This document shows positions 4,656 to 35,913 of a stretch of 64,000 nt of DNA, one piece after another (the stretch's first letter is position 1; the number at the start of each line of letters is the position of its first letter). A program made the translations under genes and the position numbers. Source of the stretch: Bacteroides sp. Its GTDB lineage: Bacteria > Bacteroidota > Bacteroidia > Bacteroidales > Bacteroidaceae. The stretch spans positions 1 to 64,000 of the forward strand of contig NZ_JAQVBV010000003.1 of NCBI RefSeq assembly GCF_028690125.1, in the 5' to 3' direction. The notes under the pieces are model-generated. The model was not told the origin of the DNA and ran no database searches. It saw only the letters and a program-made list of their open reading frames with translations.

Positions 4656-4751
4656 CAGCGTGTTTTATTCCCGTTACCTACTAAGTAACGGGAAAGTATT
4701 GTTGAAACTTAGTGTTTAATAATATATTATTAATGTAATTTTTAAGTAGTT

Positions 4752-13372: not shown

Positions 13373-14263
13373 TCAGACAATTGTCTTCTTTTTGCAATAC
13401 ATTTCCCTGAATTCGTGAGGTGTTCTCCCTTTTTTTTTCTTGAAAATACGATTGAAGTTTGATATATTATTATAGCCACATTCAAAGCAAATTTCTGCGA
13501 CTGTTTTATTTGTATCAATCAGCATACGGGTAACCATGCCAATACGTATGTCAATGAGGTACTCAGTAAAACTTCTTCCTGTATGCTGACTGAAGAAACG
13601 GCTGAAAGCTCCTTCGCTCATATTAGCCAGTTCGGCTACTTCGCGAAGGGTAAGATCGCGCATATAGTTTTTCTTTATGTAGTCGTCTACCAACCGGATA
13701 CGCCGGCTTAGTACATTGGCATCTGCATTTGCGAAACACGAACTGGAGAGTGCGCGGGTATCTCTTGCCAAAGACATCTCATACAGTAAAGAAAGAAAAG
13801 TTATCACTGAATAAAATCCTTTTTCTTCGCATGTCAGGGAATTGATTAATGAACGTATTTTCAATATGGAAGATAAAGAAAATGCTAATCCTTTATTCCC
13901 GTTTTTAAGCATATTATTTATACTGGAAAACTGATCTTTTCCTAATAATTTCTCAGATAACCAGTCACCGGAAAATTGAATGGTAACTTCACGGATGTTA
14001 CCCGGAACGAGATTATGGTTACGCCACCCATGTTCTAAGTTTCCATTAGAGATCATGACCAGTTCATAATCTCCTATTTCTTCGATTGAGTCACCAACAA
14101 CTCGTTCTGCCCCTTTGGCATTTTCTATATAGTTAATTTCAAATTCTTTATGTGTATGAATCGGATAATTAAAATCCGCTTTCTTTCTCTCAATTACGTA
14201 GAGGCAATCACTCTCTGAAATAGGGGTGATTTCATGCAATACTGTGTTTTTAGGTGTTGTCAT
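13373..14263 (-). CDS. AraC-family regulator of the mannan locus (probable)
   Basis: The 296-residue protein has an N-terminal cupin-like sensor domain (HTHKEFEINYIENAKG near residue 38) and a C-terminal AraC helix-turn-helix domain at about 190-290. Both helices are visible (LREVAELANMSEGAFSRFF and VAEICFECGYNNISNFNRIF, then GRTPHEFR). Cupin-AraC proteins often sense sugars. It lies on the same strand as, and downstream of, the GH5-terminated operon, separated by 364 bp that hold a long inverted repeat, so it probably has its own promoter. It is the only regulator inside the mannan locus, hence the likely controller. The ACTATAAT-type palindromes at 28422, 33086 and 33146 are candidate binding sites; that link is inference. 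Confidence 0.85.
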   Translation of the reverse strand: MTTPKNTVLHEITPISESDCLYVIERKKADFNYPIHTHKEFEINYIENAKGAERVVGDSIEEIGDYELVMISNGNLEHGWRNHNLVPGNIREVTIQFSGDWLSEKLLGKDQFSSINNMLKNGNKGLAFSLSSILKIRSLINSLTCEEKGFYSVITFLSLLYEMSLARDTRALSSSCFANADANVLSRRIRLVDDYIKKNYMRDLTLREVAELANMSEGAFSRFFSQHTGRSFTEYLIDIRIGMVTRMLIDTNKTVAEICFECGYNNISNFNRIFKKKKGRTPHEFREMYCKKKTIV

Positions 14264-15908: not shown

Positions 15909-15928
15909 TATTCTTAGGGTTAGGTTTA

Positions 15929-17472: not shown

Positions 17473-19452
17473 TTATTTTTCCGGATAAATATGGATGGCA
17501 GCACCGCCATTATTGGCCAACTGAAGCTTAATGGTACTTTTCTTGTCAATCTTCATTGTATGTTTTACCAAATGGTTGGGGTTACTGTTTGTATCATTTG
17601 CATCACTATAAATTTCGGCTACATATTTTCCATCACCGAGGAAATCGGTTTTGAAAGATACAGCACGTTCCTTGCTATTATTGATTGTTCCTATATACCA
17701 GTCGTTTCCTTTTCTGCGTGCTACAGTGACGTATTCCATTACAGAGGCAGAAGGTACTACAGTGTCGTCCCACGTAGTAGGTACTTTCTGTATAAATTCA
17801 AAGCCCGGCTGTCCTTCATAAGCTATCGGAGAATCACAAACCATACCCAAATAACACTCTAATACTACGTACATACCCAGCATATGACAACGTGTATTTG
17901 TTACCAAAGGATTGGTGTATTGAATCTGGAATTTGTCTTTGGGTACAGCACGGAAACCTCCCAGATGATAATCTGTAACACCGGCTAAAAGACGGGTGAA
18001 TGGAATAGCAATGTCCAAATCTGCTCCCATATCCTTTGACCATTTGTAACATTCGTAGTTGCGGGTACCTTCACGTGCAAACTCGTTCGGATAAGTACGA
18101 TTTAAACCTGAGGGCTTGCTGGAACCGTGGAACTGAACAAATATTTTATGTTCGGCTGCTTTTTTTAGTATCTCTTCCTGAATGCAGATCATTTCCTGAT
18201 CGTCACGGTCCATAAAGTCCACCATCATTCCTCTGACACCCCATTTCTCGAATTCCGCCAGAGCTTCTTCCAGTCTGTTATAGAGAGGTTTCCAGTTCAC
18301 CCACATATGCAGCCCTACTCCCTTGCTTGCGGCATATTTGGCAATAGTATCCATATCCAGTGATTTCACAGGCTTCATTACATTGGCTGTTTCGCTTGGA
18401 AACTCAAAACTCATGTTTTCATCTTCATACCAAGGTTGTTCTGCATAGCCATAGATAGAATGAAAATCAAGTCCGGCCCGTGCAACGAAATCAATATAGT
18501 ATTGGTTGGTATAGAAGTTATTACCGGGTAAAAAGAAACTATCCGGAACTATATTCCCGTTCCACCAGGAGAAAGTTGTTTTTCCCGGTTTAATCCAGGA
18601 AGTATCTTTGATGGCACACGGATCGTTCAGGTCGGTCAGTAGATTAGAAGCGATAAGAGTTCCTACCTGTTCGCCGATCATCATTACTCGCCAGGGAGAC
18701 TGATGAGGAAGTTGTGCTTTCACTTTAATCTGTTGCTGACCGGGTAATGGAGATAACTTTCCACGTAGTGAACCTTGTTCATTCATCAGGTACATACCCG
18801 CATAGTTGCGGATAGCAGCCTCGGTAATGGCCATATATACACCATCATAATGGTATAGAGTCGGCATTTCCATTAGCTGATTGGCAGGGATATCCGAATA
18901 TTTCATTTGGGAATAAAATCCTTCATGTGAAGTGGTATATGATTTCAGAAACATGGTCAATACATCCGGATTATTAGCCAGATTGAAAGAGGTCAATTCG
19001 TCATACATGATGTAAGATGCCCACTGATCCTGTTCAGGAAATACATAGCGGAATGCTGCCCCGTCATTGAACACGCGAACTACTACGTCCACTTGCCGGT
19101 TAGGAGCTTTAGTCTCTTTCAATGGAATGATGGCTTCCTGAAAGGGATCTTCCACATGAGAGCTTTTTCCGGCAATGAGGTTATATTTCTCTATGCCGGA
19201 ACGCTTAGAGATCTTTCCAATAGTGACATTGTCTCCGAATTTTCCGTTATCAAATTCAAAGCCAAGTGCTCCGTCTTTAACTAATTGTGTGTTTTTATAA
19301 TACACACTATAACTTGGAAGGTCGTTCTTCTTTATTTGCACCGTAAAACGGATGTTGCCATCCGGAGACTTCACAGTGATACTCTTTTGTGCTTGGATTG
19401 ATCCGTAAGTACAAAGTAAAAGAGTAAATAGGAATATAATCTTTTTCATCAT
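17473..19452 (-). CDS. GH97 glycoside hydrolase, retaining type (probable alpha-galactosidase)
   Basis: This 659-residue enzyme has a signal peptide ending near SIQAQ and the GH97 layout: N-terminal beta-sandwich (about 22-290), catalytic barrel (about 290-560) and C-terminal beta domain. D412 in MVDFMDRDDQ and E467 in RNYECYK are 55 residues apart. That spacing matches the nucleophile/acid-base pair reported for the retaining alpha-galactosidase BtGH97b (Asp415, Glu470, from memory). The inverting SusB type lacks this aspartate. Removing alpha-1,6-galactose from galactomannan would fit the neighbours. It is probably periplasmic. It follows GH26 by 120 bp and precedes the GH28-like gene by 14 bp. 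Confidence 0.88.
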   Translation of the reverse strand: MMKKIIFLFTLLLCTYGSIQAQKSITVKSPDGNIRFTVQIKKNDLPSYSVYYKNTQLVKDGALGFEFDNGKFGDNVTIGKISKRSGIEKYNLIAGKSSHVEDPFQEAIIPLKETKAPNRQVDVVVRVFNDGAAFRYVFPEQDQWASYIMYDELTSFNLANNPDVLTMFLKSYTTSHEGFYSQMKYSDIPANQLMEMPTLYHYDGVYMAITEAAIRNYAGMYLMNEQGSLRGKLSPLPGQQQIKVKAQLPHQSPWRVMMIGEQVGTLIASNLLTDLNDPCAIKDTSWIKPGKTTFSWWNGNIVPDSFFLPGNNFYTNQYYIDFVARAGLDFHSIYGYAEQPWYEDENMSFEFPSETANVMKPVKSLDMDTIAKYAASKGVGLHMWVNWKPLYNRLEEALAEFEKWGVRGMMVDFMDRDDQEMICIQEEILKKAAEHKIFVQFHGSSKPSGLNRTYPNEFAREGTRNYECYKWSKDMGADLDIAIPFTRLLAGVTDYHLGGFRAVPKDKFQIQYTNPLVTNTRCHMLGMYVVLECYLGMVCDSPIAYEGQPGFEFIQKVPTTWDDTVVPSASVMEYVTVARRKGNDWYIGTINNSKERAVSFKTDFLGDGKYVAEIYSDANDTNSNPNHLVKHTMKIDKKSTIKLQLANNGGAAIHIYPEK

Positions 19453-19572: not shown

Positions 19573-20688
19573 CTAGTTATTTATATCCTGATTCATTAAG
19601 ATACGTGGCTGTGAAACCATTTTCTTAAAGTCTTCCGCCGACTCATGTCCTTTGTAGGGCAAATAGAAATGTCCCGGTTTATTAGGTTCCCAAGCGTTAC
19701 GCCAGAATAATATCCATGAGATCTTATATGGTTCTAATAATGGAGCAATGACTTTTGTGAAGTAATCAGCTTGCTTAATTCCTTCCCATCCGGTTTCGGA
19801 AACAGTAGGAATCTTACCTGCTTTTTCTGCATATTTTGTCACAATATCCATGTTGTGTTTCATATCGCGACAGTAGTTTTGAATAGCCGTTTCATCGTCA
19901 CCGAACTGATAAATGTCGAAACCAACAATATCCACATATTCATCTCCCGGATAACGCTCTAAGTAAGCAGCTTCATCCGTGCAGCCGGAAGGGGAATAGG
20001 CAAAAAGAAGGTGATGCACACCAGATTCACGTAAGTGGTCTACTGTCATACGCCACATAGCAATATAATCTTCAGGGGTACTTTGTTCAGCTCCCCACCA
20101 GAACCATGAACTGTTATGTTCATGATATAAGCGGAAAACAACCGGAATATATTCCCCGTTTTTATCTTTTAAGGTATTAAAAAATGTAGCCAGACGGTCG
20201 AGCCACTGGATAAATTCCTCGTGTTTAGCTTGTCCCGGAAGGACGGAATGAACGACGTCATTACCTTTACAATCCCATGTGGAACCACCTGTGATAATAT
20301 TGTCACCGTGCCAGCTCATGGTGTTGATACCTCCGCGCGCATCCGTTTCGATGATACCTTCACGCATCTTGTTAAAATATACAGAGTCCAGACTTCTGTC
20401 TGCTCCCAGTTCCAGATGCCCTATTTCCCATCCGGTTACTGCCGGATAATCCCCTGTGACTTCTTTTACGTCAGAGGTTCCGGGCTTATAGCTCTGATGC
20501 CCATAAGCCAAATCGTCCTGATGTCCTACCATAATACCTTTATCCTTTAGTTGGAACAGACGGTTATAGAGGGAACAAGCACGTTTTGTAGCCTGAGGGT
20601 CGGAAAGCTTCTTATCTGTGTCCTGTGTTCCACAACTCATGTTCATAAAAGCAGAACATATCATGATGAATAGAATAGATTTTTTCAT
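19573..20688 (-). CDS. GH26 beta-mannanase lipoprotein
   Basis: The 371-residue protein has a lipoprotein signal with cysteine near residue 19 (FMNMSC). The GH26 barrel shows acid/base E190 in [15 protein letters not shown] and nucleophile E298 in [12 protein letters not shown]26 enzymes cleave beta-1,4-mannan. The compact size and the linked GH130, epimerase and symporter match the mannobiose-releasing ManA system described in B. fragilis, so mannobiohydrolase activity is likely. Endo action at the surface is the alternative. Its ATG overlaps the stop of the GH130 gene by 4 bp, so the two are translationally coupled. Confidence 0.9.
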
Positions 20689-21869
20689 TGTTTATTTTTG
20701 TTATAGGCTTCATTTCTGTCAATAAGCTCATATAGAGTTTCTACAGAAGCCACACTTCTAAAGCCGTCCGGAGAAGTATTGAAACAGTAATCTAAAAGGC
20801 GGTCGATGGATGACACAGCTACGTGCATACGCGTATCACAAGACGCATAATAGATGTAAACCGTTCCATCTTCATCCGCAATCCAACCATTGGAGAAAAG
20901 GACATTGGAAACGTCCCCAACGCGTTCTTGTCCTATGGGAGCCAGTAGATGACCGGCAGGTTCGGCGATTACTTGATCCGGATGTTCCAAATCCGTCACG
21001 TACAGATATAGGACATAGCGTAACCCTGCAGCACACATCCTTACTCCATGTGCCAAGTGAAGCCATCCTTTATTTGTTTTAATAGGGTGAGGTCCTTCAC
21101 CGTTTTTAAGTTCTTTAATGGTGTGGTAGTGACGGAAATTAATAATGCTTTCTTTATCTATTCTGGCATGGGTAATATCATCCACCAGTGCCCAGCCGAT
21201 TCCTCCACCGTTGCCGGCATCAATAAAACTATCTTGCGGACGGGTGTAAAAAGCATATTTGCCGTTTACAAACTCAGGATGAAGCACCACATTCCGTTGT
21301 TGGCTTTGGCTAATCAGGTCCGGTAACCGTTCCCAATCAATCAGATTCTTAGTGCGGGCAATACCGGCAGCTGCAACAGCAGAAGACAAATCACCTTTGG
21401 GAGCATTTTTGTCTTTGCGCTCTGTGCAGAATACACCATAGATCCATCCGTCTTCGTGGCTAGTCAAACGCATATCGTATACATTTACATCAGGCTCTGT
21501 GGTTTCTGGTAAACGAACCGGATATTTCCAGAAGTTGAAGTGGTCGATACCGTTAGGACTCTCCACTACAGAAAAGAAAGATTTGCGGTCGTTACCTTCT
21601 ACGCGTGCTATCATTACATACTTCCCATTCCATTTCATTGCTCCGGCATTGAATACCCCGTTGATACCAAAACGTTCCATAAAGTATGGATTGTTATCAG
21701 GGGATAAATCATATCTCCATTCAATAGGAGTATGCGCAGCTGTCACTACAGGATATTTATAACGCTCGAAAATTCCATTACCCGGTAATATCGGTTCATT
21801 AGGACGCTCCATAAGAGCAGCATATTCTTCAGCAACCTGTGTAAGGCGCTGATTAAATACATTTACCAT
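20685..21869 (-). CDS. GH130 4-O-beta-D-mannosyl-D-glucose phosphorylase
   Basis: This 394-residue cytoplasmic enzyme (no signal peptide) has the GH130 five-bladed propeller signatures. The conserved catalytic aspartate is about D132 in [21 protein letters not shown] and [10 protein letters not shown] match the phosphate and sugar site regions of subfamily 1. It would phosphorolyse mannosyl-glucose to mannose-1-phosphate and glucose, the last step of the pathway fed by the 2-epimerase at 30440. Length and motifs agree with the B. fragilis mannosylglucose phosphorylase. A subfamily 2 mannan-oligosaccharide phosphorylase is less likely. It follows the binding-lipoprotein gene after a 181-bp gap with an imperfect hairpin and overlaps GH26. 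Confidence 0.93.
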
Positions 21870-22050: not shown

Positions 22051-23286
22051 TTATTCTACTTTTATCTTCTTGACAAAGCGTAAGTTCCAGAAGTAAAACT
22101 CCATATCGCCTGCTAACTCGCGATTCATTGCCATTTTCAGGTTAATGCGCTCGCCTTTGTCTTCATAAGGCTTTTTAGCGATCTTCAGACTCGTTTTATT
22201 TCCGTCTTTGCCTTTGAATACATCTGTTACTTCTAAGGAAACAGTCTGCCATTTTCCCATTGTGTTGAGAGAAACTCCGTTGTTGGTAGAAGCTGGGTCC
22301 CAATTGTATATCAGACCGTCTCCTTCTAGATCCCCATTTCCTATCTTTATGTAGCGTGCCAATGGTACTTCAGCTGGATTGAGTATTTCCATTTTTACGT
22401 AGTAATTTTCAGGATTAGCCAATAGATCTGCAGCTGTATCATCCAACCAGAAGTGAGTAATCATAATGTTGTCATATTGCCAAGCTCCCGTATATGTCTT
22501 TTTCAACGTAACGTACCATTTAAATAATGGAGCAGCGGGATCAGAGTCTGGATTAACAGGAACAATACCTGTAGGCCACCATCCGTCTGACCATGTTCTG
22601 TCATCATTGGTCAGAATGGCAATTCCCTTTTCTCTGAATGGAATTTTTGCAGGTGAATCTAGTTCCGGTGTTGAAATTGTAAGATATGATGTCTCATCCG
22701 TAGACGTTCCTTCTGGAACTTCAATGCTAAATCCGCTTTGAGAACAATTAAAGATTCTGATATCTTGATTATTGAATTTAACACTGGCACTGATTGAGTC
22801 TATCTTATACAAGTCGAAATCGCTTCCCAATACTTCTACAGTATCTCCGTCTGCCGCAAAATCATTAGAGAATCCTTTGATTTTTAATTCCGGCAGTGTT
22901 ACATTTAAAGGAGTCGTTATTTCTCCTAAAGCAGTTTTGATAGTCAGTGTATTGGTTACTGTACCGGGCAACACACGTGGAACAACTATCTCCAGGCGAT
23001 GACGTTTGGTATATACTTGAGAAAGGTCCAAGCTGATATCATTAACAAGTACTTCTGTTACCCGTGCAAGATTGTCGCCAAAAATAGCTATTGATTGATT
23101 AAGAGAAGCTACACTGATAGCTTTGGTCGTATCCGATGAGGCTGTGATTTTTCGTACTACAGGTGCTCCGTTGGCTCCCAAGTCAGCGTCCCATCCTTCA
23201 TCCATATTCACTACATCACTGCAACTAATAGTAGTAAGGGATGTGAATAAGGCAAAAACTGTATGTTTCAAATATGTAATTTTCAT
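22051..23286 (-). CDS. surface glycan-binding lipoprotein with IPT/TIG domains
   Basis: The 411-residue protein sits directly after SusD, the usual place for a surface glycan-binding protein. It has a lipoprotein signal (TTISC, cysteine near residue 22) followed by SDVVNMDE. Two IPT/TIG-like immunoglobulin domains follow (about 40-135 and 135-215). The C-terminal 190-residue beta domain is rich in tryptophan and aromatics (WSDGWWPTG, FYFWNLRF) and probably binds glycan, as in the SGBP-B group. It would capture mannan at the cell surface with SusD. No catalytic motifs are seen. The gap to susD is 34 bp. Confidence 0.82.
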   Translation of the reverse strand: MKITYLKHTVFALFTSLTTISCSDVVNMDEGWDADLGANGAPVVRKITASSDTTKAISVASLNQSIAIFGDNLARVTEVLVNDISLDLSQVYTKRHRLEIVVPRVLPGTVTNTLTIKTALGEITTPLNVTLPELKIKGFSNDFAADGDTVEVLGSDFDLYKIDSISASVKFNNQDIRIFNCSQSGFSIEVPEGTSTDETSYLTISTPELDSPAKIPFREKGIAILTNDDRTWSDGWWPTGIVPVNPDSDPAAPLFKWYVTLKKTYTGAWQYDNIMITHFWLDDTAADLLANPENYYVKMEILNPAEVPLARYIKIGNGDLEGDGLIYNWDPASTNNGVSLNTMGKWQTVSLEVTDVFKGKDGNKTSLKIAKKPYEDKGERINLKMAMNRELAGDMEFYFWNLRFVKKIKVE

Positions 23287-23320: not shown

Positions 23321-25066
23321 TTAACTCCAACCCGGATTATTCTCGTTAATCGAAGAGTTAGAATCTATTTCGCTGGAAGGGATCGGGAACAAACGATGTT
23401 TTTCCGAACGTACTTTGTTCACGCCCTGTTCATCTTGTCCGCCGATAGCATTCATTACATCTACATAGATTCCCCACCGAATCAAATCCCAACGACGGTC
23501 TCCTTCGAAAGCAAGCTCTATTGAACGTTCTTTCAATACGTTGGATCTGAAATCTATGATGTCGGCAACATTACCTTCTCCGGTTAAAGAGAGTAAGGTA
23601 GCTTGACTACGTTCGCGAACATCGTTTAATGCACCTAATGCTATACCATCACTTGTTCCGTGTACTTCTGCATAGGCTTCTGCATAGATTAAAAGTATAT
23701 CTGCATAACGTAACAAAGGATAGAAAGCATCTCCATGCGTAGTAGTACGATCTGAACGGTCGAGATATTTAGTTGTATACGCCAGATAATAAAGGTCAAA
23801 TTGTTTAGATAAATAGGTCCAATCATCATTGAAAGGTGCTTCCTTGTTTTCTACTTTTTTACGGTATTCTTCCGTATTTGGATAGAATGCTCCCAATTTA
23901 TTGGTTACTTCGTAAGTCCATCCTCTTTTCCATCTGTGACGGATACCTTCTTTTACTCGCAAGTCTTTGCTTTCAATCATCTTATACCAGTGGTCACGCT
24001 GTCCGTGCCACAAACCATCAGCAATGTAACCGCTTCCATCTTCGATTCCACAGAAATGATAGGAGTAATATTCGCAATAGCGAGTATCCGAAGCAGATGG
24101 CTGGAGAGACCATAAGAACTCAGAACCATTGCTGTTAGCACGTTTCCACAAATCACTGTAGGTCTGTATTAATGAATACTCTCCATATTCTTTATCCATT
24201 ACCTGTTTTGCTTTTTCATAAGCTTTGGTATAATATACTTGCGGATCAAAAGCTTCGTATCCGGGAAGTTGGTGAGTAGTGATTTCAATTTTCTGAGGTT
24301 CAGTATAGGCTTTACCTTCTCCTTCACCGCTCCATGGTTTACCACCATATACCCATAGACGAGTACCATTAGGCATAGCTCCTGATGCCATTGTTGCATA
24401 AACTTTTGCTAATAAACCAGCGGCAGTACCTGCTGTTACGTGTCCTGTTACGTACTCGCCATCTGTATTTTTGTAGCATTCTGTTTCCGCATCTTGCAAT
24501 AGTTCGATGATATAGGCATAAACATCTTTAACTTCGCTGCGTGGTACATTTCGGTCTCCGGTTTCGCTGATTGATTCTTTACGCAAAGGGACAGGTCCGT
24601 AAGCTCTGACAAGTTGGAAATAAGTCCATGCTTTTAGGAATTTAAGTTCTCCGTTGATCGCTGTTTTTAACCGGTCGTTCACATTCGACATACTGTTTAC
24701 TTTATACATAGAAAAGTTGCAGCGGTGAATCATTGCATAGCCGTCTTCCCATAATGCATTGACCATGCTATTATTTTGGAAGTTACCTGCTCCAAATGTA
24801 CCAAATGCCCAGCTAGGTCCCGTTAAATAATCACTATCATATTCCCAGATCAGAGGGAAATTGTTACTGTTGAACATCGTGAGAATCTTGCTATATGTGC
24901 CGGTTAGCCATTGATTAGCACCTTTATCGGAGTCTTCAATATCATCCGGTTGGATGAAGTCAAAAGATTCTTCTTTTAGCCAGTCTTGGCATGAGGTCAT
25001 TCCCGCCATTAATGAGATCCCCATTGCGGCGGCCATGATAATATTATATATATTTTTTGTTTTCAT
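23321..25066 (-). CDS. SusD/RagB-family outer-membrane glycan-binding lipoprotein
   Basis: The 581-residue protein has a lipoprotein signal (GMTSC, cysteine near residue 26) followed by acidic residues in IQPDDIEDSDKG. It has the SusD fold: helical TPR-like half (LKFLKAWTYFQLVRAYGPVPL, quoted in part as WTYFQLVRAYGPVPL) and the C-terminal RYADILLIYAEAYAEV and RRWDLIRWG motifs. It forms the lid of the SusC transporter and binds oligosaccharide. It lies 21 bp after susC in the mannan operon. Confidence 0.95.
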   Translation of the reverse strand: MKTKNIYNIIMAAAMGISLMAGMTSCQDWLKEESFDFIQPDDIEDSDKGANQWLTGTYSKILTMFNSNNFPLIWEYDSDYLTGPSWAFGTFGAGNFQNNSMVNALWEDGYAMIHRCNFSMYKVNSMSNVNDRLKTAINGELKFLKAWTYFQLVRAYGPVPLRKESISETGDRNVPRSEVKDVYAYIIELLQDAETECYKNTDGEYVTGHVTAGTAAGLLAKVYATMASGAMPNGTRLWVYGGKPWSGEGEGKAYTEPQKIEITTHQLPGYEAFDPQVYYTKAYEKAKQVMDKEYGEYSLIQTYSDLWKRANSNGSEFLWSLQPSASDTRYCEYYSYHFCGIEDGSGYIADGLWHGQRDHWYKMIESKDLRVKEGIRHRWKRGWTYEVTNKLGAFYPNTEEYRKKVENKEAPFNDDWTYLSKQFDLYYLAYTTKYLDRSDRTTTHGDAFYPLLRYADILLIYAEAYAEVHGTSDGIALGALNDVRERSQATLLSLTGEGNVADIIDFRSNVLKERSIELAFEGDRRWDLIRWGIYVDVMNAIGGQDEQGVNKVRSEKHRLFPIPSSEIDSNSSINENNPGWS

Positions 25067-25087: not shown

Positions 25088-28000
25088 TTAGAAACTCATT
25101 TTTACGCCAAAAGAAAAAGTACGGCTGCTTGGGTAAGAGAATAAATCGACACCTTGACGAGATACATCACTACCGAAAGCATTCACATCCGGATCATACC
25201 AGCTATATTTACTAATGGTAAAGAGGTTGGATGCACTGGCATAAACGTTGATAGAATTTACGCCTTTCCAGTTTTTCGGGAAGAAAGTGTAACCTAAACT
25301 TACATTCTTCAAACGCAGGTATGAACCATCTTCAATATATCTGTCAGTGAACTTCCATTCGCGGGTATATCCGTCGGCAACGGCTCTAGGCCATTTGGCT
25401 CCTTCTGTATTTCCTTCTCTCCAACGAGTATCATATTGCTCTCTGGTAATATTAGAGATGCCTGTCATAGAAGCACTGGTGTTGTTTGCAATAGTATTGG
25501 CATTTACAATATCATTGCCATAAGTACCTTGCAGGAAGAAGCTGAATGTGAAATTCTTATATTGCAAAGTATTAGTCAAACCATAGATAAAATCCGGGTT
25601 TGTATCTCCGATTACGCGCTTGTCTGCATCGGTTATCTGACCATCTTTATTGTAGTCACGGTATTTAATTTCTCCGATCAAGTTTTTTGCTTCACCTTCT
25701 GACACATTTGCATAGCGTGGATCTGCCCTAACTTCTGCCAGATTGTCGTAGAAACCGTCTTCTACAAAACCTACTACCGTTCCGATAGGACATCCGTTAC
25801 GCATTACGAATACGTTCTTGATGCTGTTTACGAACTGGCTTGCATACTGGTCACCTGTCAATCCACCGATACGGTTACGGTTGAATGAGATATTTGCATC
25901 AATCTCCCAATTCAGATCTTTGTGTACTGTTGGGTGGAATGCTCCGGTAATTTCAAGACCTTTATTAACAACATTACCTATGTTAGTTGCCATCTGTGTG
26001 TAACCGGAGTTAGTTTCGATATTCACTTTCTGAAGCAAATCTTTCGTACGTTTGTAGTATGCGTCGATGGTCAGATTCACTCTTCCTTTTGCGAATGAAA
26101 CATCCAGTCCGAGGTCTACTTGATCTGTAGTCTCCCATTTCAGATTTTTATTGATCGGACCTTTCCAGGTTTGCTCAGCATATCCTGAGTTCAAAGAACC
26201 GTTGAATACATAACCTGCAACAGACATTGCCGGAAGGGTTGCATAAGTATCTATGCCCTGATTACCTGTCTGACCATAGCTTAAGCGTAGTTTTAAATCA
26301 TCGAAGATGTTCAAGCTTTCAATCCATGGCTCAGCAGACAAACGCCAAGCTAATGCCCCTGATAAGAAGTGTGCATATTTATTGCCTTCTACAAATACAC
26401 TTGAACCGTCTGCACGATAAGATACAGTTGCCATATATTTGCTTTTATATGAATAGTTCAAGCGTGCCAGATTAGATTGCATCCGTTTCTTTCCGCGTCC
26501 AGAAGATAATGGGTAAACTTTACCTCCTGCGCTCATATCCCACATCATAGTCAGGTCGCTTGGGAAATTGTAAGCAGACATTCTGTTGTATTTCCAGTTG
26601 GACTCTTCGAAAGTAATACCGGCCAATGCGGCAAAGTCATGATCTTCTGCGAAAGTGTGATTGTAGGTCAATAAAGTTTCACTGGTAACACCTTCAGACC
26701 ACCCTGTTCCTTGTGCACCTACCCCATTGGTCGGTTCGTAGCCTTGACGAGTCAATCGGTTGTAGTACATATTACGGTCGTTTCCTGAATAGCTGAAACC
26801 TAAGTTTTCACGCAATTTTAAACCTTTCAGTAGAGTTGCTTCGAAATAAGAAGATAAGTACACATTGTTTGCACGATATTCATCGAAAGCTTCCCGTACA
26901 TATACATATGGATTGGTTGCAAGCCAGTTCAATTCATTGTTGTCTTTGGTGTTGATGCTGGCATCATAAGTCGGAGGGAATACCAAAGCTGAATAAATCA
27001 CACCGTCACCACCTGAAGTACTTGAATTGACAAAGTTAGTCAATGCATTCGTATAGTTTACATTTAATCCAACTTCCAACCAGTTGGTTACCTTACGCCA
27101 AAGATTGGAGCGGACAGCAAAACGTTTGTAGTCAGAACCTACAATTGTACCTGCCTGCTTACTATAATTTAATGACATCATATATCCGCCTTGTGCATTA
27201 CCACCATCTATACTTAAATTATATTCCTGAGTAAATCCTGTTTGGAAGATTGCATCTTGCCAGTCCGTTGAACCTACATTGTAATTATTGCCATATTCAT
27301 CTGTATAAACTCCCGGGCGGCGGAAATCTTCCGGTGACGGAGAATACTTACCGGTATTGGTCATTAAGTTACCAGATGTATCTGTGCTATAATACCATTC
27401 ACCGCGATAAGGCAATTGTCCTTTCGGATTAGAGTTCAGTACCTGCTCATTCATGTATTGAGCATAAGTAACAGGGTCCAGAACATCTATCTTCTTTGCA
27501 ATTTTAGAAACACTGAAGTTGGAGGAGAAGGTGATGTTATTTTTACCTTCTTTACCACGCTTCGTAGTAATAATGACAACTCCGTTAGCTCCACGTGAGC
27601 CGTAGATGGCTGTAGAAGAAGCATCTTTCAAAACCTCGATGGACTCAATATCATTAGGATTGATATTGGCTAATGGGTTAGAACCTGAACCGGTACTACT
27701 GATACCAGTATCGGGTGCAGTGCCACCACCGCCATAAGGAAGTCCGTCTATTACATAAAGTGGTTGTGTGCTTGTACTAAAAGAGTTTGCACCACGTACC
27801 TGAATTGTTATACCTCCACCGGGAGCACCGTCGTTCTGCTTTACTTGCATACCGGCAATTCTTCCTTGAAGTGCACCGTTGATACTTAGTGCCGGGTTAC
27901 CTTTCAGGATATCATCAGCCTTTACCTGGCTAACCGAGCCTGTCAAGTCCCGCTTCTTCATTGTACCATATCCCACTACCACAACATCATTCAACTGATT

Positions 28001-28294
28001 GACATCGTCGGCCAGCTTCACATCTAAACGATTTTGTGAATTAACTACTACTGTCTTTGAAGTCTTACCTATGTAAGAGAAGATCAGTATGTCCCCCTTT
28101 TGTACTTCAATAGTGTAATTGCCGTCAAAATCAGTAGTTGTCCCCTTCTGAGCACCTTGTACCTGGATAGTAGCTCCAATCATAGGAGAGTTGTCGCTTG
28201 CATCAATCACTGTTCCACTGAGTGGAAAGGATTGAGCCAAAACCAAGCTTGTATAGAACAAGCAACAAATAAGAATTAATCCGATTCTTTTCAT
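25088..28294 (-). CDS. SusC/RagA-family TonB-dependent outer-membrane transporter
   Basis: The 1068-residue transporter begins with a signal peptide and a CarboxypepD_reg-like domain (SGTVIDASDNSPMIGA). The canonical LNDVVVVGYGTMKKRDLTG plug start and plug domain follow (STAIYGSRGANGVVIITTK near residue 230), then a 22-strand barrel ending in SFGVKMSF. It lacks an STN domain, so it probably does not signal to an anti-sigma factor, which fits regulation by the AraC protein. It is the first gene of a leftward operon reaching 14628. A TAACTTTG element and an ACTATAAT-type palindrome lie upstream. Confidence 0.96.
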   Translation of the reverse strand: MKRIGLILICCLFYTSLVLAQSFPLSGTVIDASDNSPMIGATIQVQGAQKGTTTDFDGNYTIEVQKGDILIFSYIGKTSKTVVVNSQNRLDVKLADDVNQLNDVVVVGYGTMKKRDLTGSVSQVKADDILKGNPALSINGALQGRIAGMQVKQNDGAPGGGITIQVRGANSFSTSTQPLYVIDGLPYGGGGTAPDTGISSTGSGSNPLANINPNDIESIEVLKDASSTAIYGSRGANGVVIITTKRGKEGKNNITFSSNFSVSKIAKKIDVLDPVTYAQYMNEQVLNSNPKGQLPYRGEWYYSTDTSGNLMTNTGKYSPSPEDFRRPGVYTDEYGNNYNVGSTDWQDAIFQTGFTQEYNLSIDGGNAQGGYMMSLNYSKQAGTIVGSDYKRFAVRSNLWRKVTNWLEVGLNVNYTNALTNFVNSSTSGGDGVIYSALVFPPTYDASINTKDNNELNWLATNPYVYVREAFDEYRANNVYLSSYFEATLLKGLKLRENLGFSYSGNDRNMYYNRLTRQGYEPTNGVGAQGTGWSEGVTSETLLTYNHTFAEDHDFAALAGITFEESNWKYNRMSAYNFPSDLTMMWDMSAGGKVYPLSSGRGKKRMQSNLARLNYSYKSKYMATVSYRADGSSVFVEGNKYAHFLSGALAWRLSAEPWIESLNIFDDLKLRLSYGQTGNQGIDTYATLPAMSVAGYVFNGSLNSGYAEQTWKGPINKNLKWETTDQVDLGLDVSFAKGRVNLTIDAYYKRTKDLLQKVNIETNSGYTQMATNIGNVVNKGLEITGAFHPTVHKDLNWEIDANISFNRNRIGGLTGDQYASQFVNSIKNVFVMRNGCPIGTVVGFVEDGFYDNLAEVRADPRYANVSEGEAKNLIGEIKYRDYNKDGQITDADKRVIGDTNPDFIYGLTNTLQYKNFTFSFFLQGTYGNDIVNANTIANNTSASMTGISNITREQYDTRWREGNTEGAKWPRAVADGYTREWKFTDRYIEDGSYLRLKNVSLGYTFFPKNWKGVNSINVYASASNLFTISKYSWYDPDVNAFGSDVSRQGVDLFSYPSSRTFSFGVKMSF

Positions 28295-28684: not shown

Positions 28685-30199
28685 ATGAAACGATTGACAT
28701 TCTTATTACTTCTTTGCTATGGGGGGATTCTGCAAGTTTTGGCATCCGTATTTAATGTGACTGAATATGGAGCCGTTGGCAATGGAAAGCAGTTGGATAC
28801 ACGTTCTATACAGCAAGCTATTGATAAATGCTATGAAGCCGGCGGTGGTCGCGTGTATGTCCCTGCCGGAACGTATTTGGTTGGTACGTTGAATTTACGT
28901 TCTAACGTGGAGTTCTATCTTGAAACGGGAGCTACTTTAAAAGCAACTACGGATCTGACTCAATATCAACGTCATAATTCAGAGTTGGCGGGTGTTTTTT
29001 ATACCGAAAAAGCTAATAATGTATCTATTATTGGTAATGGTTGTATTGACGGAGACGGCATGAGTTTTATGGAACCGGGAAAAGAAAAGATCATTGGAGA
29101 TCAGGAGAGGTTGCAAACTCGTCAGGGACTTGATTTCCGAAAAGTAAAAGGTACATTAGGTGACGGGCCATTGTATCCGAAAGACAGATATCATCAAATG
29201 ATTGTTTTTAGTGAGTGTACGGACATTACTCTGAAAGATTTTAAGTGTTTGGATTCTCCGTATTGGTGTTTTGTGATTGTACATTGCGAAGGAGTTAAAA
29301 TACAAGGACTATACATTAATAATAATCTGATGATTCCTAATAGTGATGGTATTGATATTATTTCTTGCAGCGATGTTACGGTTTCCGACTGTCGTATTTA
29401 TGCCGGCGATGATGCAATTGTGGTTGCCGGATACGGCTGGCATCATGGAGATCCGGGTTTTAAGAATATTCTGAAACCATCTAAAAATGTGAATGTTAGC
29501 AATTGTGTCTTACAGTCACGTTCCAGTGGTATCCGTATTGGCGGACATGATCAGAATCCGATGTCGAATTATAATTTCAGCAATATCACGATTTTCGATT
29601 CTAACCGTGGTATCAATATCTCAGTCAGTGACTCTTGTTCTTTGGAAAATGTGACATTTGATAATATCCGTATCGAAACCCGTTTGCATACAGGCGACTG
29701 GTGGGGACAGGGAGAACCAATAAATATTACGGCTATGGTTCTTGTCCCGGAGAAACAGAAAATTGGTGTCATCCGTAATTTGTTTTTCAATAATATAACT
29801 TGTGTCGGTGAGAACTCAATTGTAATGATTGCCGATAAACAGACGCAATTACAAAATATTTATTTCAATAATTTCGACTTTATATTACGCAAAAGCGCCA
29901 TTGAGGATGTTGCCGGAGGAAATTATGATTTACGGTTGAATGTAAATCCGAAACGTACTCTTTATGCTGCCGATATTCCCGTATTCTATATAGAGAACGC
30001 TAAAAATGTTTATTTCAATCAGGGAAATATCGGTTGGGACAGAGCGGATATGCCGTATCATACGTATGCTATAGATGCGGTTGATGTTACCGGTTTGCGA
30101 ATTAGTAATACTACTGCTACTGCTTCTCCCGCACATCCAACTTTCCCAGCATTACGTACCCGTAATTGTAAACAGGTAATTAACAATATAATCAAGTAG
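28685..30199 (+). CDS. GH28-like beta-helix protein, paralogue of the gene at 15929
   Basis: The 504-residue secreted protein has a signal peptide ending near residue 21 and no lipobox, unlike its paralogue. Its beta-helix begins FNVTEYGAVGNG. Shared blocks with the paralogue include TDLTQYQRHN and YPKDRYHQMIVFS. NSDGID (219-224) and GDDAIVV (241-247) keep the acidic residues of GH28. The GHG histidine is absent (SSGIRIGG, 280-287) and the RIK motif is replaced by GINISV. It may therefore be active on a non-uronic substrate, or serve another role. It is divergent from susC and monocistronic, ending at a terminator. Confidence 0.8.
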   Translation: MKRLTFLLLLCYGGILQVLASVFNVTEYGAVGNGKQLDTRSIQQAIDKCYEAGGGRVYVPAGTYLVGTLNLRSNVEFYLETGATLKATTDLTQYQRHNSELAGVFYTEKANNVSIIGNGCIDGDGMSFMEPGKEKIIGDQERLQTRQGLDFRKVKGTLGDGPLYPKDRYHQMIVFSECTDITLKDFKCLDSPYWCFVIVHCEGVKIQGLYINNNLMIPNSDGIDIISCSDVTVSDCRIYAGDDAIVVAGYGWHHGDPGFKNILKPSKNVNVSNCVLQSRSSGIRIGGHDQNPMSNYNFSNITIFDSNRGINISVSDSCSLENVTFDNIRIETRLHTGDWWGQGEPINITAMVLVPEKQKIGVIRNLFFNNITCVGENSIVMIADKQTQLQNIYFNNFDFILRKSAIEDVAGGNYDLRLNVNPKRTLYAADIPVFYIENAKNVYFNQGNIGWDRADMPYHTYAIDAVDVTGLRISNTTATASPAHPTFPALRTRNCKQVINNIIK

Positions 30200-30439: not shown

Positions 30440-31633
30440 TTATTTCACTCTTTCGATTATTTCCATACACATCCGGCTGTTATGGTAAGGGCATTTCCAA
30501 AATCCGGCTTTATCGTCTTTGCGATTGATAATCCCATTGGCTTGTACACTCCAAAACCACTCTCCGTGTTTATGGTCAATCAGCTGCTCTTTGATGAATG
30601 TCCAGGTAGATGAAACTTTATGCAGAGCTTCTTCATTGTCCCAATGTTCATAGATATTAAAAAAGCCGACAACGGTTTCTGCCTGTACCCACCAATGGAA
30701 ATCAGTATCGGTATGCTTTGTATCCAGATGTTTCTCGTAAATCATTCCTTTTCCGGGCAATAGACCTTCAGCGGCTGCTTCGGCTATTTTATATACAATG
30801 GGTTCTGTTGCTACAATCAATGATGGGTCGCCTGTGACCAGAACCGCTTCGTGTAGTAACCAAGAGGCCTCTATGTCATGACCATAAGAAACAATGGGAT
30901 ATTTGCTCTGCCAATCATCATTGAAGAATAACTGTAGATGGGACGTTTCTTTATTTAATATTTTATGTGTAAATAGGCTGATCAGGTTTCTTAATTGTTT
31001 TTCGAGCTTCTCATCTTTCCAAACCCGGTAGAGGTTAGTATAAGGTTCCAAGATGTGCAAATGGGTATTCATCGTTTTGCGTTCATTGGCATCTTTCTCG
31101 CTGAGTCGCATATCGGCTATTTCCTCCCATTCCCGGGTCAGGGCTTCGTAATACCCGTTTTTGTTTTTGTCGAAACTATGTTCCTCAATGTCGTGGAAGA
31201 GGCGTATGGCATACTCTAACGCTTCGGGGTCTCCCGTAGCTCGGTGGTATTCACTCAGACCATAAATGGCAAAACCGATTGCATAAATTTGCTTTTTGGT
31301 ATCCAGTGGCTTTCCGTCCTTGTCTAAAGACCAGTAGATCCCTCCATAATTGCAATCATAGAAGCGGTCTATTAAATAACGTTTTGCTTTGGTAGCTGTT
31401 GCCAGATATTCTTCTTGCCTCAATAAACGGTAAGCTGCGGAGAATGTCCACAGGATACGGGCGTTCAATACAGCTCCTTTTTCTGCATCAGGCATTAATA
31501 CTTCGTTACCTGTGATGCGTCCGTAAAAACCGCCATGATCTTCGTCTGTCATTTGCTCCATCCAGTAGGGAAGGATGTTTTCAGTCAGCTCTTTCCGGAG
31601 CTCCTCTTTGAGGGTAGATGCTATTTTATTCAT
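30440..31633 (-). CDS. AGE-family 2-epimerase (probable cellobiose/mannobiose 2-epimerase)
   Basis: This 397-residue cytoplasmic enzyme has the (alpha/alpha)6-barrel of the N-acylglucosamine 2-epimerase family. Likely catalytic residues are R59 (NARILW), H191 (MNTHLHILE), H252 (SYGHDIEASW) and H384 (CPYHNSRMC). The histidine spacing matches characterised cellobiose 2-epimerases. HWWVQAE near residue 313 is also typical. In a mannan locus it would turn mannobiose into mannosyl-glucose for the GH130 phosphorylase. It overlaps the symporter gene by 8 bp, so uptake and epimerisation are co-expressed. Confidence 0.92.
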   Translation of the reverse strand: MNKIASTLKEELRKELTENILPYWMEQMTDEDHGGFYGRITGNEVLMPDAEKGAVLNARILWTFSAAYRLLRQEEYLATATKAKRYLIDRFYDCNYGGIYWSLDKDGKPLDTKKQIYAIGFAIYGLSEYHRATGDPEALEYAIRLFHDIEEHSFDKNKNGYYEALTREWEEIADMRLSEKDANERKTMNTHLHILEPYTNLYRVWKDEKLEKQLRNLISLFTHKILNKETSHLQLFFNDDWQSKYPIVSYGHDIEASWLLHEAVLVTGDPSLIVATEPIVYKIAEAAAEGLLPGKGMIYEKHLDTKHTDTDFHWWVQAETVVGFFNIYEHWDNEEALHKVSSTWTFIKEQLIDHKHGEWFWSVQANGIINRKDDKAGFWKCPYHNSRMCMEIIERVK

Positions 31634-33017
31634 TTTGTTTTTCTTTTCTTTTTTGTTCCAATTCGTCGGTGATTTCTTTCATTCTTTTCTCAGATAATGG
31701 GTACATACTGATGAAGATAATCGAGAGAATAGTTCCCACAGCCGGTAGCCAGCTCAGGAATAGTTTTATTCCGTGGATAGCCTCAACGCTTTGTACTTCG
31801 TTGGCACGGAAGCCGAAATAAGCAAGGAGCCATCCGGTAAGTGCGCTACCGATAGCCCATCCGAATTTTTGGCTCATGGATGAGGAAGAGAAGATTAATC
31901 CTGTGGCGCGATTACCTGTTTTTAGCTCTGAATAGTCGGCGCAGTCTGCATACATCGACCATAGTAACGGGAAAATACTTCCTGCACAAATACTGATAAT
32001 GATTTGTAGTGTGAAAATCCAAATCAGGTCGCCTTTGTCCAGCCAATAAAATAGGATAGAGAATATGGTTGCTATAACCATTGCACCCATGTATGTTTTG
32101 TTTTTACCCAACCGGTTGCTTACAGGAGCGGCCAATACAACTCCTACAATATTGGCTGCCTGACCGACTGCCAGATAAAGTCCGCTGAGTACGAATGAGA
32201 CTCCGAATAGGGATATACTTTGATAGTCTTCTTCTACAATGAAATACTTAAAGTAATATACGGTAGCCCCGTCACGGATGGAATTGAATACTAATGCGGC
32301 TACTCCTGCTCCCAGAAGTATCCACCAGGGGCGATTGTACAAAAGATCTTTTAAATCGGTTTTTAAAGAACTTTGTTTGGCATTGATTGCTTTTACCCTT
32401 TCACGAGTCCATGCAAAACAACCGTAAAATAGTATGGCACACATCATCCCAATGACTACTACGCTCATTGTCCAACCGTATTGTTCGCTATGTCCTACAC
32501 TAAACCAGTTCGTCATGGGCATGAAAAGTAACAGAGCGATAAAGCTGCCAATATAGGCAAATGCCATACGGTAAGTAGAAAGTGTATTTCTTTCTTTAGG
32601 ATCGGCGCTCATTACTCCCAGCAAAGAGGCATAAGGAACGTTGATGGCTGAATAGACCATCATCATTAATGAATAAGTGACATAGGCATAGATTAATTTG
32701 CCGGTATCACTGAAATCGGGAGTTATAAAAGTCAAAACTCCAATAAATGCGAAAGGTATGGCAAGGAATAGTAAGTAAGGGCGGAATTTACCCCAACGTG
32801 AATGTGTCCTGTCCGCCACAATGCCAACTAACGGATCGAATCCGGAATCCCATATTCGTGTGATAAGAAACATGGTCCCTACTACTGCCGCCGGTAGCCC
32901 GAATACATCGGTGTAGAATATCATCAGATAAGAACCGAACAATTTCCAAAACATAGACGATGCCATATCGCCAAAGCCATAACCTATTTTCTCTTTTAGT
33001 GCTATCATAATAATCAC
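31626..33017 (-). CDS. GPH-family (MelB-type) sugar:cation symporter
   Basis: The 463-residue inner-membrane protein has about 12 hydrophobic segments and the GPH signatures GYGFGDMASSMFW at the N-terminus, RIWDSGFDPLVGIVADRT near residue 50 and GLPAAVVGTMF. These families import disaccharides with Na+ or H+. In B. fragilis-type mannan clusters a related symporter sits beside the epimerase and is thought to import mannobiose, the likely substrate here. ATG at 33017 or the in-frame one at 33008 are both possible. A TATCTTTG element and a perfect 16-bp palindrome lie upstream. Confidence 0.92.
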   Translation of the reverse strand: MIIMIALKEKIGYGFGDMASSMFWKLFGSYLMIFYTDVFGLPAAVVGTMFLITRIWDSGFDPLVGIVADRTHSRWGKFRPYLLFLAIPFAFIGVLTFITPDFSDTGKLIYAYVTYSLMMMVYSAINVPYASLLGVMSADPKERNTLSTYRMAFAYIGSFIALLLFMPMTNWFSVGHSEQYGWTMSVVVIGMMCAILFYGCFAWTRERVKAINAKQSSLKTDLKDLLYNRPWWILLGAGVAALVFNSIRDGATVYYFKYFIVEEDYQSISLFGVSFVLSGLYLAVGQAANIVGVVLAAPVSNRLGKNKTYMGAMVIATIFSILFYWLDKGDLIWIFTLQIIISICAGSIFPLLWSMYADCADYSELKTGNRATGLIFSSSSMSQKFGWAIGSALTGWLLAYFGFRANEVQSVEAIHGIKLFLSWLPAVGTILSIIFISMYPLSEKRMKEITDELEQKRKEKQNE

Positions 33018-33261: not shown

Positions 33262-35913
33262 ATGAAAAAGTACATTGTATTACTAACACTTTTATGGTTG
33301 TCTGTTTGTGCTTATAGTACAACTTCTTTGCGCAGCCGCATTTTACCGGGAACGCTATCCTCAACGGAAGCGATCGTCTTTTGGGAATTTCCTTCTGATT
33401 ATCAGAAGATAAAACAGTATAATATACGTGTAAACGGGAAATTGGTGGGAAATACAACCCGGAACAGCTTTCGTATTGCCCAGCTCAAACCTGATACGGA
33501 TTATCAGGTAATGGTATGTGCCGTTTCTGAGCGTAATAAAGAACGTGCGGATCGGGCTATCCAATTAAAAACAACTCCGGCGCCACAGGTTTTTGATGTT
33601 ACTAAATATGGAGCGAAGGGAGATGGCAAGACTATTAACACGAAAGCTATTCAACAGGCAATTGATGATTGTACTCCTTATGGAGAAATTTATATACCCG
33701 CCGGTGAGTATCTGACCGGAGCACTTTTTATATTGAAAGATAACATCAACTTGCATATTGCTAAAGGAGCTACTCTGAAAGCAATGAATAACCTGGCTCA
33801 TTTCCCATTAGTAAAAAGTCGCTATGAAGGGAATGGCGTGGATGCTTTCGCAAGTGTGCTTAATTTGGGAAAACTGAATAATAAAGATAAAAGGTATACG
33901 AATATCCGTGTTTACGGGGGAGGCACAATTGACAATCAGGGTAGTGTATTAGCTAAACAGCAGACTGACAATCTTAGCCGTATGTCTCGTTCGCGCGGAC
34001 TTCCTATTATTAATTGTGATAATGTATCTATTGATAATATAACGATTACCAATCCTTGTACCTGGAATGTGCATCCTTTGCTCTGCAATGGTGTGACTAC
34101 TTATGAATGCCATATCGTTTCTTCCGGCTTCGGCCTTAGCAACGCTGACGGATGGGACCCTGATTCTTCGGCAGATTGCTATCTGTTGAATTCTGTTTTG
34201 GACGGTCAGGATGATAACATAGCAGTGAAGTCTGTTCATTATATTGATGAAGACGGTAAGGAGATCAAGAAAATTTGTGAGAATATTTATGTTAGTTTCT
34301 GCCATTTCGTTCGCGGAGGTGGTATTTGTGTCGGAGTTGAATTGCCTGCAGGCGTTCGTAATGTATGGTTTACCAATTGCCTGATAGAGGGTAGTGACCG
34401 TGGATTTATGATATGTAGCCGCCAAAATGGACAAGGTACAGGTGCTATCGAAAACATTCATTTCCGGGATATGGAAGTGAAGCAGACGGGTGACTGGGGA
34501 ATTAATATCAATCTGTGGTATTGGATTAACAGTTACAAACCGAATCGTTTTACATCAGCGGATATTCGTGAAATCAAGGATATATATTTTGAGAATATAC
34601 ATATTGCTAAAGCGTTGGGCAATCCTATACAAATCCTCGGATTGTCAGAACAGCCCATTAAGAATGTACATTTTAAAAATGTAACGATTGACGAGGCACA
34701 GTATGATGTGCTTTTACGGCATTGTGATAACATTTCTTTTGAAAAAGTAAATGTAGGTGACAGGTATTGGTTTTATGACAATGCTAAGAATGTGGTTTGC
34801 GACAGAAAGACTTCTCACCCTCTTGAGTTTAAATATCCCTATAAATTAGTGGATAAAGATGCTACATTCAAGGTAAAGGCACTTTATGAAAACCTTCACA
34901 AGGTAATGGATAGCGGACGTTTTATCTTTGGCGCGCAAGACGCTACTGCTTCCGGATATGGATGGTGTGATGATTCCGGTAAGAGTGATATTGAACGTAT
35001 TTCCGGCAAGAAACCTCAATTCTATAGCTGGGATTTTATGAATATTGCTACTCCACACGCTAAGCATCATATCCAAGATACGGAGAAAGTGCGTCGATTG
35101 ACTTGTCAGGCATTTTATGAAGGAGGAGTCATCTCTTATTGTTGGCATGCGGCCAATCCTGTGACAGGTGGTAGTTTCTATGAAACGGGGGATAGCATTG
35201 TGAAAAAGATTCTTCCGGGTGGAGAGTATCATAAGAACTTTACCGATATGTTGGATCAGGTAGCCGAATACAATAAAACATTGATAGGAAAAGACGGAGA
35301 ACAGATTCCGGTGATTTTCCGACCTTGGCATGAATTCGACGGAGATTGGTTTTGGTGGGGGAAAAAGTATTGTACGGCAGAAGAGTTCAAAGAACTCTAT
35401 CAGTTTACTGTCACTTATCTACGGGACAAATGTAATATTCGTAACTTCTTGTATGCGTTCTCACCAGACATCAATTTTACTTCTGAAGAAGAATATTTGG
35501 AACGTTATCCGGGAGATGAATATGTGGATATTATTGCAATGGACAATTATTGGAATTTCCGCTATGAAGAAAAGGATCTCGATGCAGCACATATTCGTTT
35601 AAAAGTCCTTTCGGATTATGCCATTAAAACAGGAAAGATTGCAGCCTTATCGGAAACTGGTCAAGGAGGAATTGATGATCCTAACTGGTTTACTAACCGC
35701 TTGCTTAAATCTATCTACGGCTATCCGGGGGAACCTGTTAAGCTAGCCTACGTTGCAGTATGGCGTAATAGTGTACAAGGTTTCTTTACTCCTTATAAAG
35801 GACATCCGGCAACAGATGATTTTCTGAAATTTATCAATGATCCGAGGGTTATTACTTCCAGTCCGTATGATTGGCTGGGAATGTATTATCATTTCAATTC
35901 ACCTATAAAATAA
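33262..35913 (+). CDS. fusion protein: FnIII-like domain, GH28-like beta-helix, GH26 mannanase
   Basis: From the ATG at 33262 (MKKYIVLLTLLWLSVC, a signal peptide) the protein has 883 residues. The track's earlier start adds 21 residues without signal character. Residues about 21-104 form a fibronectin III-like domain. About 109-520 form a GH28-type beta-helix with NADGWDPDS (294-302) and D317/D318 in GQDDNIAVKS. GGGICVGVE stands in place of GHG, and RGFMICSR in place of RIK. About 535-870 form a GH26 domain with acid/base E691 in FRPWHEFDGDWFWWG and nucleophile E798 in ALSETGQGG. One polypeptide thus joins a pectinase-like fold to a mannanase. It has no clear lipobox, so it is periplasmic or secreted. 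Confidence 0.88.
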   Translation: MKKYIVLLTLLWLSVCAYSTTSLRSRILPGTLSSTEAIVFWEFPSDYQKIKQYNIRVNGKLVGNTTRNSFRIAQLKPDTDYQVMVCAVSERNKERADRAIQLKTTPAPQVFDVTKYGAKGDGKTINTKAIQQAIDDCTPYGEIYIPAGEYLTGALFILKDNINLHIAKGATLKAMNNLAHFPLVKSRYEGNGVDAFASVLNLGKLNNKDKRYTNIRVYGGGTIDNQGSVLAKQQTDNLSRMSRSRGLPIINCDNVSIDNITITNPCTWNVHPLLCNGVTTYECHIVSSGFGLSNADGWDPDSSADCYLLNSVLDGQDDNIAVKSVHYIDEDGKEIKKICENIYVSFCHFVRGGGICVGVELPAGVRNVWFTNCLIEGSDRGFMICSRQNGQGTGAIENIHFRDMEVKQTGDWGININLWYWINSYKPNRFTSADIREIKDIYFENIHIAKALGNPIQILGLSEQPIKNVHFKNVTIDEAQYDVLLRHCDNISFEKVNVGDRYWFYDNAKNVVCDRKTSHPLEFKYPYKLVDKDATFKVKALYENLHKVMDSGRFIFGAQDATASGYGWCDDSGKSDIERISGKKPQFYSWDFMNIATPHAKHHIQDTEKVRRLTCQAFYEGGVISYCWHAANPVTGGSFYETGDSIVKKILPGGEYHKNFTDMLDQVAEYNKTLIGKDGEQIPVIFRPWHEFDGDWFWWGKKYCTAEEFKELYQFTVTYLRDKCNIRNFLYAFSPDINFTSEEEYLERYPGDEYVDIIAMDNYWNFRYEEKDLDAAHIRLKVLSDYAIKTGKIAALSETGQGGIDDPNWFTNRLLKSIYGYPGEPVKLAYVAVWRNSVQGFFTPYKGHPATDDFLKFINDPRVITSSPYDWLGMYYHFNSPIK

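Follow-up and report, generated by a model that had tools for sequence, protein, structure and literature searches.

Introduction

Among the described systems closest to the locus considered here is the galactomannan locus of Bacteroides ovatus. In this species, a surface endo-mannanase is followed by a periplasmic alpha-galactosidase and then by a galactose-sensitive, mannobiose-forming GH26; BoGal36A debranches before the galactose-sensitive BoMan26A, whose catalytic residues are E188 and E292, and both enzymes are likely periplasmic (PMC5217682). A mannan locus from an uncultured member of the Bacteroidetes encodes GH26, GH130, GH5, CE6 and GH3 enzymes and no GH28 (PMC6643232). With regard to GH28, catalysis by A. 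niger endoPGII requires D180, D201 and D202, and Arg256 and Lys258 belong to those listed for subsites -1 and +1; His223 in the same numbering is absent from rhamnogalacturonases, which are active (PMC8952511). In the open-access literature that we searched, with incomplete coverage, we came across neither a GH28-GH26 fusion nor a mannan locus with a GH28.

We describe here such a fusion gene and the mannan locus that contains it, from the gut bacterium Bacteroides sp. GCF_028690125.1 (contig NZ_JAQVBV010000003.1, positions 1-64,000 of the forward strand; this 64-kb stretch is referred to below as the window). The FnIII-GH28-GH26 order is a new domain architecture, and its GH28 part is likely to be a retargeted GH28, that is, a variant of known families.

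Results

The first-pass annotation of the window had read a single ORF with an FnIII-like domain, a GH28-type helix and a GH26 domain, and this was borne out both by single-ORF orthologues in four other species and by Pfam matches to fn3 (1.6e-6), Glyco_hydro_28 (PF00295; 4e-26, 92 bits against a cut-off of 22.9) and Glyco_hydro_26 (5e-41, 141.6 bits against a cut-off of 20.2). The open frame that contains the gene has its upstream limit at 33199, and the start at 33262 is likely to be real, since translation from this position opens with a signal peptide and the B. faecalis orthologue has its first residue at the corresponding site. A lipobox pattern scan of the N-terminus found none, so that the protein is probably periplasmic rather than surface-lipidated; an SPI-like N-terminus was observed in all four orthologues as well.

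An AlphaFold2 model of the FnIII and GH28 domains, computed from the window sequence plus 33 other rows, had a pLDDT of 92.4 and a pTM of 0.93. Its top PDB match by Foldseek was the Yersinia exopolygalacturonase 2uvf/2uve (E 1e-25, TM 0.83-0.84), followed by the galacturonidase 5olp and then by the Thermotoga exopolygalacturonase 3jur, and the right-handed parallel beta-helix together with the PF00295 profile places the domain in GH28. The full-length model (15 rows) had a mean pLDDT of 81.4 and was less certain in its GH26 part, which is assigned to that family by profile, TIM barrel and two catalytic Glu residues; Foldseek still matched this model to GH26 structures, including those of BoMan26A and CjMan26C. 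By sequence, the nearest PDB entry to the GH26 domain is the Muricauda GH26C. Judging by its nearest relatives and by the locus, this half of the protein is presumably a beta-mannanase.

We observed that the NADG motif, the DD pair and GGG in place of GHG, all reported in the first reading of the GH28 domain, were present as described when aligned to relatives, and that the two GH26 catalytic glutamates reported there, E691 and E798, align to those of BoMan26A (4zxo) and are invariant in all five fusion proteins. FMIC had also been reported in place of RIK; the loss of the basic residues holds, but F-M-I-C (382-385) aligns with L-R-I-K, and the replacement is strictly one of RIK by MIC. The sequences N-A-D-G-W-D-P and G-Q-D-D-N, and R-G-G-G at the GHG site, are each found in 5/5 fusion proteins, and the RIK site reads M-I-C in the window and B. 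faecalis, Q-I-C in Cryptobacteroides and H-V-C in both Alistipes proteins ([M/Q/H]-[I/V]-C). The domain, then, retains the three catalytic Asp residues of GH28 (NxDG, DD), has GGG in all five where polygalacturonases and xylogalacturonases have the GHG His, and is without the Arg and Lys of RIK around subsites -1/+1; on this last account the name polygalacturonase is not appropriate for it. The loss of GHG is decisive for the polygalacturonase type only and not for the family, and is no sign of inactivity, because rhamnogalacturonases are without this His too (PMC8952511). GGG for GHG is found also in several bacterial GH28 relatives, and loss of the K of RIK along with GHG is rare among the near ones. 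Retention of the Asp triad with loss of the His and the basic pair is what would be expected of a substrate-switched GH28.

A search for this domain order in other genomes, proposed with the first reading, was run on 85,462 species genomes with exact peptide patterns, by which more distant fusion copies could be missed, and recovered FnIII-GH28-GH26 in four close relatives, each as a single ORF of 876-885 aa. Identity to the window protein was 94% for B. faecalis, 72% for Candidatus Cryptobacteroides avicola and 66% for two Alistipes species, and profile scores were at least 845 bits in the orthologues against at most 249 in anything else. We found no further copy in 301 family genomes, and among 160 genus genomes only one additional full-length copy (94% identity), which is probably B. 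faecalis again. A frameshift or assembly fusion is rejected, since all four relatives carry the fusion as one uninterrupted frame.

Purifying selection acts on the GH28 domain as it does on the GH26 domain. For window versus B. faecalis and for Alistipes versus Alistipes, respectively, dN/dS was 0.023 and 0.096 in GH28, 0.020 and 0.061 in GH26, and 0.12 and 0.17 in FnIII, ratios that are rough because dS is near or above 1. Within 6 residues of key GH28 positions, 50/66 residues (76%) are invariant, against 162/333 (49%) elsewhere in the domain (Fisher p 5e-5), an enrichment that is supportive only, since the key positions were picked by the analyst. Of the two outcomes that would have told against the first reading, a frameshift is ruled out, and an inactive GH28 domain appears less likely, given the Asp triad, a dN/dS of 0.02-0.10 and the conserved active-site region.

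As can be seen in Table 1, 13 genes (~13.4-35.9 kb) form a locus for beta-mannan utilisation, with the fusion gene at its end, and this locus has the features of beta-mannan loci in Bacteroidota: SusC/D, GH26, 2-epimerase, GPH transporter and GH130 mannosylglucose phosphorylase. The N-terminus of the stand-alone GH26 ends in MNMSC, which makes it a possible lipoprotein, although the strict lipobox pattern is not matched. The locus GH97 scores better against alpha-galactosidases than against alpha-glucosidases, and alignment to 3a24 places an Asp nucleophile in VDFMD where 5e1q has Gly. An identical gene set occurs in B. faecalis, in Cryptobacteroides (on two contig ends) and in Alistipes Zagget8. 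In Alistipes SUG839 the locus is rearranged on one contig, with SusC ~39% and SusD ~30% identical to those of the window; it additionally has an AXE1-type acetyl esterase and three stand-alone GH26 genes, and it is without GH97 and GH28a, whereas the fusion and GH28b are kept, so that the GH28s may themselves debranch there.

Outside the mannan locus the host genome has one GH28 only, and a PF00544 pectate lyase was sought in this genome and none was found, although it has GH88/105-type genes and, outside the locus, one strong GH36-type (PF02065) match. The proposal made with the first reading, that both domains serve one mannan-type substrate, gains support from the single outside GH28 and the absence of PF00544, and from the position of the gene inside, and travelling with, a complete beta-mannan locus.

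Table 1. Positions in the window of the locus genes and of the domains and active-site residues of the fusion protein
Feature	Position	Strand	Basis or remark
AraC-family regulator	13373..14263	-	Pfam; conserved with locus
GH5-type exo-beta-mannosidase, nearest 1uuq (Man5A)	14628..15962	-	333 bits
GH28b, third GH28-type protein, LMGC lipobox	15929..17458	-	Pfam, alignment; NSDG and DD kept, no GHG/RIK
GH97 with VDFMDRDDQEM nucleophile motif of retaining alpha-galactosidase BT1871	17473..19452	-	Alignment
Stand-alone GH26 mannanase	19573..20688	-	Pfam; N-terminus
GH130 mannosylglucose phosphorylase	20685..21869	-	650 bits to 3was
Surface glycan-binding protein (SGBP_B_XBD)	22051..23286	-	Pfam
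SusD-like protein	23321..25066	-	Pfam
SusC-like TonB-dependent transporter	25088..28294	-	NCBIfam
GH28a, second GH28-type protein	28685..30199	+	NSDG and DD kept, no GHG/RIK
2-epimerase (AGE family), probably mannobiose 2-epimerase	30440..31633	-	Pfam; conserved neighbour
GPH/MFS sugar transporter	31626..33017	-	Pfam MFS_2; conserved neighbour
Fusion protein, 883 aa: signal peptide-FnIII-GH28-type beta-helix-GH26	33262..35913	+	ORF, Pfam, orthologues
Signal peptide / N-terminus	33262..33336	+	Sequence and lipobox pattern scan
FnIII domain, residues 26-106	33337..33579	+	Pfam fn3; strands in AF2 model
GH28-type beta-helix, residues 107-505	33580..34776	+	Pfam, AF2 pLDDT 92, Foldseek 2uve/2uvf
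D296 of NADG (294-297), first GH28 catalytic Asp	34147..34149	+	Invariant in 5 orthologues, alignments A3/A4
D317-D318, GH28 catalytic Asp pair (QDD 316-318)	34210..34215	+	Invariant in 5 orthologues, A3/A4
G352-G353-G354 replacing GHG	34315..34323	+	Alignment to relatives; invariant
M383-I384-C385 replacing RIK	34408..34416	+	C385 invariant; 383 = M/Q/H
GH26 domain, residues 528-883	34843..35910	+	Pfam; nearest PDB 6q78 GH26C, CjMan26C, BoMan26A
E691, GH26 acid/base (HE 690-691)	35332..35334	+	BoMan26A WHE motif alignment; invariant
E798, GH26 nucleophile	35653..35655	+	BoMan26A ETG motif alignment; invariant

GH28a and GH28b share 57% identity and retain NSDG and DD, with SSGI/SSAI at the GHG site and NIS/NIN at the RIK site. 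A lipobox scan of GH28a found none; GH28b has one. In the GH28 tree, the GH28a/b group lies far from the fusion group (support 100/100 each), so that GHG and RIK have been lost in two lineages within one mannan locus. Among the 301 family genomes, no relative of GH28a/b at E<1e-60 was found outside these loci.

Related arrangements were found elsewhere. In G737, of the same genus, separate FnIII-GH28 (GHG, QIK) and GH26 genes are adjacent (L132/L135; C87:123725-126364, minus strand), and their neighbours are pectin-type genes, with a GDSL esterase, a GH3, a hybrid two-component-type regulator and SusC/D; this pair would fit a uronic acid substrate instead. We rejected it as the split ancestor of the fusion: its GH28 is canonical and its GH26, whose place in the tree is unsure owing to a long branch, is not sister to that of the fusion, so that it looks like an independent neighbour pair. 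The nearest relative of the fusion GH26 is one from a mannan locus of G245 (SH-aLRT 94). This locus (L089), also from the same genus, is without GH28 and has two GH26, GH5, GH3, GH130, GPH and epimerase genes. The nearest FnIII-GH28 relative outside the fusion group (L086:5460-14757) has GGFG at the GHG site and lies near GDSL esterases, a polysaccharide deacetylase, GH115 and GH20.

Elsewhere in the window, a phage-type integrase gene precedes one for a 931-aa protein that contains GEKG/GDKG repeats of collagen-like type (3441-7547), and a CotH kinase-domain protein is encoded at 44534-46480. Between 48835 and 62866, two loci face in opposite directions and resemble each other in their SusC-like proteins (51948-55046; 59753-62866) and in their TIG-domain proteins (55067-56467; 58277-59731).

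Discussion

Conservation of the fusion in five species suggests that a pectinase fold has been re-purposed to trim mannan. We propose, at what we would call even confidence, a periplasmic two-headed enzyme in which a retargeted GH28 debranches imported manno-oligosaccharides and GH26 then releases mannobiose. The FnIII-GH28 half would descend from exo-type GH28 pectinases, with the inverting Asp machinery kept but without the His and the basic residues on which pectinases rely around subsites -1/+1. Acting presumably as a catalyst, and probably in the periplasm, it would remove an alpha-linked substituent from the imported oligosaccharides before the backbone is cut. The tethered GH26, kin to substituent-hindered, mannobiose-forming enzymes, would then cut the bared backbone to mannobiose, which would pass to the GPH transporter, the 2-epimerase and GH130. 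In the simplest reading, the fusion would unite steps two and three of the B. ovatus scheme. Our leading guess for the substituent is alpha-galactosyl, with mannose as the leaving group, because alpha-galactose has an axial O4 in common with galacturonic acid and occurs on mannans. Still, alpha-galactose may not be the target of the GH28s, since a GH97 alpha-galactosidase is present in the loci of four of the five species, and a GH28 that acts on a neutral sugar of mannan was not known in the literature and libraries that we searched.

That GH97 lends some weight to a variant in which the target of the GH28 is some other neutral sugar in alpha linkage (for example an L-sugar, glucose or a second galactose in a longer side chain) and GH97 handles ordinary alpha-1,6-galactose, and three GH28s in one locus likewise suggest a more complex decorated mannan. 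We nevertheless consider this variant improbable: nothing in the gene content of the locus indicates a defined plant mannan decorated in this way, and the one Alistipes locus without GH97 keeps two GH28s. Possibly, the GH28 instead still cleaves a galacturonide or other uronide, on a mannan that bears uronic acid or is linked to pectin. Its ancestry, the exopolygalacturonase as best structural match and the canonical FnIII-GH28 that directly adjoins GH26 in G737 are in keeping with this, and rhamnogalacturonases, which cut a linkage with rhamnose as the partner sugar, show that galacturonate on both sides of the bond is no requirement in GH28. What makes it unlikely in our estimation is that the R, K and H are all gone from the fusion GH28 and from both partner GH28s, that the locus yielded no pectin lyase and the genome no PF00544, and that the G737 pair has a GH26 that is not sister to the fusion GH26.

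The GH28-type domain could also be a dead carbohydrate-binding module that holds mannan for GH26. If the domain were catalytically dead, one would expect the Asp triad to have been lost in some lineage, yet this domain is constrained much like GH26, and its partners GH28a and GH28b, which keep the triad, are stand-alone proteins, one of them with a lipobox. The loss of GHG and RIK speaks for such a module, as does a precedent in Bacteroidota, the CBM89 beta-helix of CapGH10, which was inactive on 30 substrates and binds xylan; CBM89, however, is without the conserved catalytic residues of beta-helix glycoside hydrolases (PMC8810776), and the fusion proteins, down to 66% identity, do not vary in the Asp triad or around it. 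On balance, we find a CBM89-like module unlikely.

If the proposed debranching by GH28 is extended to the partner proteins, at least two independent GH28 lineages would have dropped galacturonide binding and become mannan-debranching alpha-glycosidases, one of them fused to a mannanase. We offer this tentatively, as a possibility somewhat short of even. Such enzymes may, for example, be alpha-galactosidases on Gal-Man, with debranching and backbone cleavage in one polypeptide.

GH28 is regarded as a family of pectin enzymes, and in genome annotation the presence of a GH28 gene is taken to indicate pectin use. In the present case, a mannan locus includes three GH28-type proteins of two distant lineages, none of which retains the residues for pectin binding. 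Should these proteins be active, GH28 would gain an activity not yet described, it would be an error to annotate loci of this kind as pectin loci, and the fusion would provide a compact mannanase that both debranches and cleaves.

Among known systems, the best structural match to the FnIII and GH28 beta-helix of the fusion is YeGH28 of Yersinia enterocolitica (2uve/2uvf), which shares the Asp triad and has the same FnIII and beta-helix order. In contrast to YeGH28, to which it is ~23% identical, the GH28 of the fusion is without the GHG His and RIK, is joined to GH26 and is placed in a mannan locus. The mannobiose-forming BoMan26A (4zxo) and CjMan26C (2vx4) belong to the same family as the GH26 half and resemble it in both catalytic Glu residues and in a loop 2 of similar length; here, however, GH26 is C-terminal to FnIII-GH28, and loop 8 is shorter than in BoMan26A, which makes exo action of this half unsure. 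The CBM89 of CapGH10, a GH10 xylanase, is similar in that it, too, is a parallel beta-helix joined to a hemicellulase in a Bacteroidota protein, and differs in having no GH28 catalytic residues (PMC8810776), whereas the fusion matches the GH28 Pfam profile and keeps all three Asp residues. The likeness of the locus to bacova_02087-97 of B. ovatus extends to SusC/D, GH26s, isomerase, symporter, mannosylglucose phosphorylase and a separate debranching enzyme, which in that system is a GH36, with no GH28 mentioned (PMC5217682). In contrast, the locus described here has GH97 and three GH28-type proteins, one of which is fused to GH26.
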